From positions 1-64,000 of the forward strand of contig JAMJFZ010001649.1 in NCBI GenBank assembly GCA_026225945.1: a DNA stretch of 64,000 nt, written 5' to 3'. This document shows positions 46,762-49,700 of the stretch, in pieces. Every line of letters begins with the position of its first letter. Positions within the stretch are counted from its first letter, which is position 1. The translations under genes and the position numbers were made by a program. The notes beneath the pieces are model-generated. The model ran no database searches. It worked only from the letters and a program-made list of their open reading frames with translations, and had not been told where the DNA came from. Origin of the DNA: Cricetomys ansorgei. Its lineage: Eukaryota > Chordata > Mammalia > Rodentia > Nesomyidae.

Positions 46762-49700
46762 GTAAGGTCTGGCGGGGGACGTTAGAGGGAAACTTGTCCA
46801 GCCTCGTGTTTTCCGTCGCTCACTGTTGCATTCTGCACATCCACTCCAGGGACCCGCACCTCCTCGCACCTGCAGTCCCACCTCCGCCTGCCGTTTTAAC
46901 CACAAGATTCCTGTTCCATAAGCAGCCTTCTGACTCCGCCCCTCTATGTTAAGTCATCACCTGCGCCTTCATTCTTTCGGTGACGTCACATCACCTCATG
47001 TTCTTTTTTTTTTCTTGCTTACCTTTCCCTTGTCCTTTTTTTTTTTTTTTTTTGCCCTTCCTACCCCTTCTTTTTTCCTTTTCTTCCCTCTCTTTTCCCC
47101 TCCCCCTTTTGTCCCATGACCTCTTCTCCCCCTTTCCTCCTTAAACTTTCAGCCCCTGAAACCACACCCCTAGCAAAAGATCCTAACAACTACTCCTTCC
47201 CACCTGAGTCTCCGTCGTCCTGCCATAAAGGATTCAGCCCTGTTCTCACCCTCAAGGTGCCTTTGGCGCCCAGGAAAGAGTTCAACGACCAGCTTGCCAG
47301 TACTACTGGCCTTTCTCCAAATGCAGGCAAAAGGTTCATCAACTCCCCTTACTCAAGAGAACCTTTCTCTTGTCTCACCATTTCATCTCCTTGCTTAACC
47401 CGACGAATCCCCACGCCACCTCCTCAGCCCCTCCTACCCCCCTCCCCATCCCCACCGGGCAGATGTTTTTTTGAACCCTTTTCTCCACTCCTAGGACGGC
47501 TGTACAGCCAAGAGCTGGTCAGTTCATCCCCTCCGAGCCCCTGTCTTGATCGATTCAACCTTCAAGGGCCACCCTCTCCTCGTCAGGCTAACTTTTATTG
47601 TAACTGGATCGGTTCCCCAAGATCTCAGCGTCGGTGCCCCTCAACCCCGTGCCATTGTTACTGTAGTCCGGTGACTTCTCCACAGCTCATTCATCAGCCC
47701 CCCAGAACCAGCCCAGTAACCTCCCCTCAACTCAATCATATATCCTTGGAGACTCGTCCTGTGATTTCAACTACCCTTGTGCCAGGGTCCCAGGGAAATT
47801 ACTCCATAATTTCACCTCATCTTACCCATAGGACCGTGAGAACTGGCCTCACAATTTCACCTCCCCTTGCTCACCGATCTGTGGAAACTAGACCTCTAGC
47901 CTCTGCATCTATTTCTCACAGAGTTTTGGAAACTGGGCCCATGATCTCTCACTGGTCCTCAGGGAGAGGTTACAATGAACCTCCACTCTCTTCCCCACCC
48001 ATGGGCAGCCTTTACCCTGAGCACCCTAAGCCTCCAGACTCTTGTGAACCTAAACCGCAGCCTAATGTATCTCTTGGGAAAAATGGTTGTGGGCCTCCAC
48101 TCTCTTCTCAGGCAGACGTGTCTGGCTCTCCCATCTCGTCCCAAGATGACTCTTTTTATTCCCACATTTGCTCAGAGTCCCAGATTGCTACCTCTAGGAG
48201 TCCTTACTGTGTTATCAACCTACCACCAGAGAGTGCTGGTTCTCCTAGCTCAGCCCAGCCTCAGGCTCCCAAGAAATCTTGCCTAGAGTCCTTTCTTTCA
48301 TGGGGGACTGAGGGGAATTCTTTCCTCTTGCTAACCCCAGCTCCTATAGTGTCTGGTCCTCCCTGTCCCACAGAACCACCTCTTCCTCCTTGTCCTTGTC
48401 CTGCCCCTGCCCTGTTTATCCCATCTCTCGTGGGCAACCAGGTTTTAGCTTCACCTCAACCACCCAGAGGTTATGTACCCCCTACCCCTACCCCAGTTCC
48501 CCCTCAGACGAAGTCCCCCAAATCCTCAGAATCACGACGTATTCCATACAGGTGTCGCTCCCTAATCAATACACCCTACCACATCCCTCCTGATCATCCT
48601 AAGTGCCAGAAGACTAACACCTCTCCGAAGCCTCCCACCTCATCCTTTGGCCTTTCTGGTGTTCTTATGGAGCCATCCATCACAACTACTTCAGATTCCT
48701 GCCCAAAAGAACTTGCCCCAGAGACTACTATGGAACCTAGAATCCTCAAAGCTGTTGTCCCTCCTCCCTATCCCCACTGCCTGCCTTGTACTCCTGTCTT
48801 GCCCAATAGATGTCCCAAGAGCAGTCCCCACCGGCCACCTCCAGTATCCCCTTGCAATACCCATGTATATTCTGTGGCTCCTCCCGCCTCCCATTCATCC
48901 CCACACTCTGTCCGTCAGTGTCATAACCAGCCTGTGGTTCGTCCTTGTGGCACTTACAGTTCTCCCAGGGGTCCACCACCACCTCATAGCAAGCCAGTGA
49001 TGCCTCCATGTTCTACTCACATCTATTCTTTCATCCCTCTGAGAACACCCTTTGACCCCCAATGTTTGCCTGTTGTATCTCGAGCTCGGCTTTTCCCCAG
49101 TTCTATTCCCTGTGGCCTTCATACCTATACTGTGGCTCCTCCAGGTCCCCTCAAAGATCCCCCCCAGATTCCCTACAGCTGTTCTTTGCCTTCGCCTAAG
49201 AGTTCCTCCTGTAGCACTAGTACCAGCTGTACTTCAACCATTATTATTTGTGAATGTCATGGTAAGGACAACCAGAGTATCAACCAAACCAAAAGTGAGA
49301 GCCAGGACAAGAATTCCCTTCTTAATGGAAGCAAGACTCCCCCAAGCAGGAGCAGTAGTCCTTCCCAAAACAACACTGAGGACCAGAGTGAGAGTACCCA
49401 GCTGAGCATCACTAAGACCCAGAGTGAGAAATTTCACTATACCAGAGGTCGGAAGCAGAGCAGGAGTCCTCAAGGTGGTAAAAGTCATAGCCGGAGCAAG
49501 AGTAGTAGAAGTCGTAGCCGGAGCAAGAGTGGTAGAAGTCGTAGCCGGAGCAAGAGTAGTAGAAGTCGTAGCCGGAGCAAGAGTCCCCGCCACAGGAAAA
49601 ATCTTAGTCACAGCAAGAGTCCCCGAAATAAGAAGAAAGTATGACCAGAACACAAGCTGTGACCACAACAAAAACCCAGACCAGAGCAGAAGTTGCAATA

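Follow-up and report, generated by a model that had tools for sequence, protein, structure and literature searches.

SHTAP is a sperm protein whose binding to the CAP domain of CRISP2 is reported for the mouse in the available text of PMC10947329, citing Jamsai et al., where the SHTAP-CRISP2 complex is also said to redistribute in the sperm head on capacitation. The interaction is repeated in the accessible part of PMC8850557. A comparable arrangement is the testis-specific promoter of mouse Map2k7, for which the available text of PMC8766832 likewise describes a testis transcript arising from inside a conserved host gene. There, however, the transcript is one of the host gene and is newly evolved in one mouse subspecies, whereas SHTAP is an unrelated protein found in many placental orders. 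The third system is NSUN4, which lies on the same strand and at the same locus as SHTAP and possibly shares exons with it. NSUN4 is well conserved, while SHTAP is fast-evolving, predicted to be disordered and without a methyltransferase domain. No paper in the open-access literature searched names both SHTAP and NSUN4, or "sperm head and tail" together with NSUN4, so the link between them rests on sequence-database gene names, and that literature may have paid little attention to the nesting. NSUN4 appears in the tables of a study of pig sperm arrays (PMC7084236, in its available part), where the probe may not separate the host from the nested gene. It is mentioned only for embryos in the accessible text of PMC7141194, and was not found in PMC3192792 on nested genes.

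In the window, by which we mean the whole 64-kb stretch of DNA analysed, an 842-codon frame opens with the ATG at 47116 and closes with the TGA at 49642-49644, inside NSUN4 intron 1 (46762-51690) and on the host strand (Table 1). The first-pass annotation had claimed an intact frame of this length between NSUN4 exons 1 and 2, and its coordinates, strand, codon count and intronic setting all proved exact. Exons 2-4 were identified by their match to solved NSUN4 chains (best E 1.5e-91), the junction of exon 1 to exon 2 is in phase 0 and in frame, and the 31 codons of exon 1 are what we take to be the mitochondrial-targeting end of NSUN4. A Pfam scan found the RsmB/F methyltransferase domain absent from the SHTAP frame; it sits in the downstream NSUN4 exons. 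The frame is the rodent copy of the known placental-mammal sperm protein SHTAP, a conserved gene and not a product of chance. The gene was already known and is ordinary for placental mammals, and the earlier naming as SHTAP was right.

The neighbourhood holds several other coding traces. Upstream of NSUN4, a UQCRH hinge-protein exon lies on the plus strand (33327-33497), UQCRH presumably being the neighbour of NSUN4 in mammals. A 314-codon open run on the minus strand (11688-12632), with no Pfam or PDB match, may resemble LRRC41, the neighbour of UQCRH. At the end of the window, a chromobox (HP1/CBX)-like sequence extends over two frames of the plus strand (63649-64000) and is probably a processed pseudogene.

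Table 1. Features of the NSUN4-SHTAP locus, in positions of the window.
Feature	Positions	Strand	Basis or remark
NSUN4 exon 1, coding part, 31 codons	46669..46761	+	read by eye; donor TGG/GTAAGG
AG-free zone of 197 bases, pyrimidine tract, then TTTCAG	46954..47152	+	candidate 3' splice site
TGACGTCA, full palindromic CRE-type site	46981..46988	+	sole match in window
SHTAP frame, 842 codons	47116..49644	+	protein searches, tree, alignment
Ser-Pro / His / Glu-Thr repeat region, residues 185-280	47668..47955	+	alignment
Conserved core, residues 575-710, three C-x-x-H-x-Y motifs	48838..49245	+	alignment
Basic tail, residues 715-842	49258..49641	+	34 K+R, 7 D+E, pI 11.97
27-base tandem repeat, 4.3 copies, coding RS repeats	49471..49584	+	repeat search
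AG/GTAAGT donor consensus (GT at 49965)	49963..49970	+	320 bases past stop codon
ATTAAA	50233..50238	+	only one between SHTAP stop and exon 2
NSUN4 exon 2	51691..52025	+	solved NSUN4 chains, splice-site and junction checks
NSUN4 exon 3	54374..54528	+	solved NSUN4 chains, splice-site and junction checks
NSUN4 exon 4	59741..59901	+	solved NSUN4 chains, splice-site and junction checks

Pooled protein searches returned 52 different relatives (42, 45 and 52 rows, overlapping), scoring in the searches that yielded 42 and 52 rows being limited to the candidates with the most shared words. A SHTAP or SHTAP-like name stands on 28 of them, and the named rows match over most of the length, which bears out the proposed identity; the Meriones row, for example, reaches E 3.6e-277 with 67.2% identity over 796 columns. 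The best match to the window is Phodopus (72% over 784 columns), and identity is 64-72% to six named murid and cricetid rows and 61% to Nannospalax. All 43 relatives that carry an organism name are placental mammals, and they represent rodents, primates, carnivores, hoofed mammals, bats, hedgehog, elephant, manatee, elephant shrew and sloth. No marsupial, monotreme or non-mammal appears among the named rows, those of the core-aimed and seven-row-profile searches to E 10 included, an absence that falls short of proof given that the search needs shared 5-residue words and has length and candidate limits. Likeness to mouse SHTAP was established through named relatives, the mouse sequence itself not being among the returned rows: by the NCBI and UniRef names of these relatives it is the same protein, with start region, core and basic tail in common, and the window differs in coming from another species and in the 27-base RS repeat expansion of the tail.

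A tree built by a quick method from the first 42 relatives and the window mostly matches the mammalian orders, the exception being the two squirrel rows, whose separation from the other rodents is not strongly supported. The window falls among the muroid rodents, beside the gerbil, murine and cricetid branches and without a close partner. Together with the identities, this shows the gene to be vertically inherited and the species to be a muroid that lacks a near relative among these rows. Ten of the 52 relatives (five rodents, dog, orangutan, deer twice, cattle) are filed under NSUN4, which supports the same location in those species, the intronic position of relatives being read through names only. 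As judged from these sequences, hosting by NSUN4 is long-standing in placentals and not special to this genome.

Some of the relatives depart from the full-length form. The ape models (Pan, Pongo) are shortened at both ends. Those of Pan, Pongo, Rhinopithecus and Macaca (P0025, P0044, P0027 and P0024) are without the tail end that is present in the capuchin Sapajus, where about 50 further residues, many of them K, R or S, follow beyond the catarrhine end; three of these catarrhine models stop at ...GKSKSL and the Macaca model stops earlier, likely a shared truncation to judge from the sequences. The model of the elephant shrew Rhynchocyon (P0051) has only 280 residues, without repeat region or basic tail, and may be a partial model or an eroded gene. 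A muroid contig (P0009) leaves the frame twice, for about 90 codons at 47963-48226 of the window and once more in the tail (49529-49681), which may reflect real indels or assembly error. Its end matches a 101-codon plus-strand frame (49424-49729) that is read in a different phase from the RS tail it overlaps and extends beyond the SHTAP stop.

The product of the frame is rich in P (17.8%), S (17.5%) and C (4.2%), and the whole protein has a pI of 9.70. It has a start of the MTSSPPFLLEL type, the strict form of which, M-[TNS]..S.P..[ED], is matched by 22 of the 52 proteins; the start in the window misses this pattern through a K at the acidic position, and other rows diverge or begin further in. 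Organised repeats and a basic RS tail had been described at first pass, and both are real. The former comprise the Ser-Pro/His/Glu-Thr region, in which 53 proteins, partial ones among them, have between 0 and 10 ET motifs, plus the RS tandem array in the tail. This array is hardly common to the relatives (mean column support for residues 801-820 of 0.06 among 42 aligned relatives); a basic tail of KSP type is common in the SHTAP family, and the aligned sequences show the RS repeat to have expanded specifically in this lineage. Within the core, PPCSTHIYSFIPLRTPFDP is nearly invariant across aligned relatives, and 14 columns are invariant in 39 rows (C580, P620, P631, C632, T634, H635, Y637, S638, I640, P641, L642, R643, F646 and C666). 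No Pfam model matched the SHTAP frame, and a PDB profile search with the SHTAP alignment found no relative. AlphaFold2, run on 39 rows, gave a mean pLDDT of 42.9, with 676 of 842 residues below 50, and the protein is thus predicted to be disordered, with no fold.

The stop-free run around the frame measures 886 codons (46984-49644), against 314 for the runner-up across the six frames of the whole window. We mutated the frame of the window itself in a neutral simulation to 80, 72, 67, 60 and 50% protein identity, with 60 runs per setting under two mutation models; mean numbers of stops were 6.7-19.9, and the smallest single run had 1. The length of the frame, the 7-20 stops expected neutrally and the wide spread of relatives speak against a frame kept by chance. 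The relatives are open, but the lack of stops in them is an argument biased by a predicted-protein database that under-represents lineages without the frame.

The pattern of change is that of a fast-evolving protein with constrained parts. In a replacement test of the window against 10 chosen rows of the 42, the share of conservative changes was more than 2 sd above neutral in six (Phodopus, Peromyscus, Meriones, Arvicanthis, Nannospalax, Castor), weakly above it in Rattus and Jaculus, and not above it in donkey or sloth. Rows without overlap being skipped, the core (575-710) has an identity of 75.0% to eight muroid rows and 61.1% to 11 chosen non-rodent rows, and the tail 53.0% and 35.4%, respectively. 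Against the deer model P0050, the window is 80% identical in the NSUN4 part (230 columns) and 47% in the SHTAP part (440 columns), which indicates a frame that evolves fast and yet keeps a firm core. Such a combination is common among sperm proteins.

Candidate expression signals lie around the frame. CREM drives many spermatid genes through CRE sites, and the only full CRE of the 64 kb lies at 46981, 135 bases upstream of the ATG. Shuffled windows held a mean of 0.30 full CREs, with at least one in 22 of 100, and the chance of a CRE in a stretch of 354 bases, the length from exon 1 to the ATG, is 0.002 at local composition. We consider this site a candidate spermatid promoter element. It adjoins the CpG-rich NSUN4 promoter stretch (CpG o/e 0.66-1.05 across 46501-47100) and may serve NSUN4 itself. 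Downstream, the donor at 49965 scores 7.0 on a weight table, a value reached by 7 of 3670 plus-strand GTs, and the donors of NSUN4 exons 1-4 score 3.5, 4.4, 1.0 and 2.8. CRE and strong donor together suggest a transcript that begins in intron 1, contains the whole frame and splices into NSUN4. As for poly(A) signals, the only AATAAA between the SHTAP stop and exon 2 lies at 51551, and TATAAA, a weaker signal, occurs at 50111 and 50490.

The reading that we prefer, and hold as a whole to be probable, is a SHTAP gene with one long coding exon in NSUN4 intron 1, transcribed in spermatids and encoding a structural partner of CRISP2. Transcription in spermatids would start downstream of NSUN4 exon 1 but upstream of the ATG, driven by the CRE-type element at 46981, and the resulting mRNA would carry the SHTAP frame first. 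The SHTAP exon would then either splice from 49965 to NSUN4 exon 2, with the NSUN4 exons as its 3' part, or end at a nearby poly(A) site. The disordered Pro/Ser/Cys-rich protein with its basic tail would serve as a structural CRISP2 partner in the sperm head and tail, as reported for mouse; a structural or scaffold role there is most likely because of the disorder, the cysteines and the basic tail.

The alternative that survives best makes SHTAP an alternative exon of NSUN4 with no transcription unit of its own, entered by a splice from exon 1 to 47153 and/or left by one from the exon end to exon 2, so that SHTAP would arise through retention of the intron, or through internal starts, in transcripts from the NSUN4 promoter. 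It draws on the AG-free stretch of 197 bases, the longest on the plus strand of the window (the next has 185), which terminates at a TTTCAG with its acceptor-like AG at 47151-47152; the sequence at 46997-47153 is 90% pyrimidine. An exon from 47153 would begin 37 bases inside the frame, however, and the 46761-47153 joint reads W-P-L-K-P-H-P-stop, out of the SHTAP frame, with the conserved start removed and a stop after six codons. Moreover, 22 of the 52 relatives retain at their start a Met and a nearby acidic residue, neither of which a splice tract alone needs. The strong donor at 49965 and the ten relatives filed under NSUN4 fit an alternative exon, as do two deer models (P0049, P0050) in which the SHTAP frame is joined in frame to NSUN4 exon 2; P0050 has the methyltransferase domain (PF01189) and is without NSUN4 exon 1. 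In a cattle (Bos) model, P0052, the core is missing and the tail is in another frame, as if an intron had been removed from the coding frame. These database entries, all three of them gene models, suggest splicing around the SHTAP exon. Overall, we regard SHTAP as an exon dependent on NSUN4 transcripts as possible, if rather unlikely.

The SHTAP exon might instead be a retrogene, the parent of which would lie at another genomic site and would have given rise to the copy in intron 1, as a single long intronless exon within the intron of another gene would allow. Against such an origin, the hits to E 10 in two wider searches are all SHTAP or SHTAP-NSUN4, although a diverged parent could escape these, and the Pfam and PDB searches gave no relative; we find it improbable. 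Also very doubtful is that the SHTAP exon acts in male germ cells as a large alternative first exon, spliced in frame to NSUN4 exon 2 in place of exon 1. The best right-phase donor in the window for a fusion of the deer type, at 47518, scores 2.6, below the donors of NSUN4 exons 1, 2 and 4 and above that of exon 3 (1.0), and no phase-0 donor in the window exceeds it for an in-frame passage from SHTAP to exon 2, a score that speaks neither for nor against the fusion. If it were true, the SHTAP-NSUN4 fusion would be a non-mitochondrial NSUN4 with a sperm-structure domain; without in-frame fusion, the NSUN4 exons would follow the SHTAP exon as its 3' part or as a second frame. Finally, that this is an old open frame, untranslated and kept by chance or low-complexity composition, is scarcely credible. 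In its favour, Pro and Ser dominate, and most of their codons lie more than a single step away from a stop; the frame also evolves fast, and P0009 slips out of frame. Against it, the next run in the 64 kb is far shorter, the simulation expects stops, relatives as distant as sloth and elephant share the frame with rodents, 14 columns are invariant in 39 sequences, and the mouse protein is published, as the available text of PMC10947329 has it.

A SHTAP gene nested in this way is a clear instance of a housekeeping mitochondrial gene that houses an unrelated germ-cell protein throughout placental mammals. Deletions or edits of NSUN4 intron 1, as well as counts of NSUN4 RNA in testis, can confound the two genes. 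The CRE and donor sites provide a testable model in which one locus would serve the mitochondria of every cell and, in spermatids, the structure of the sperm.
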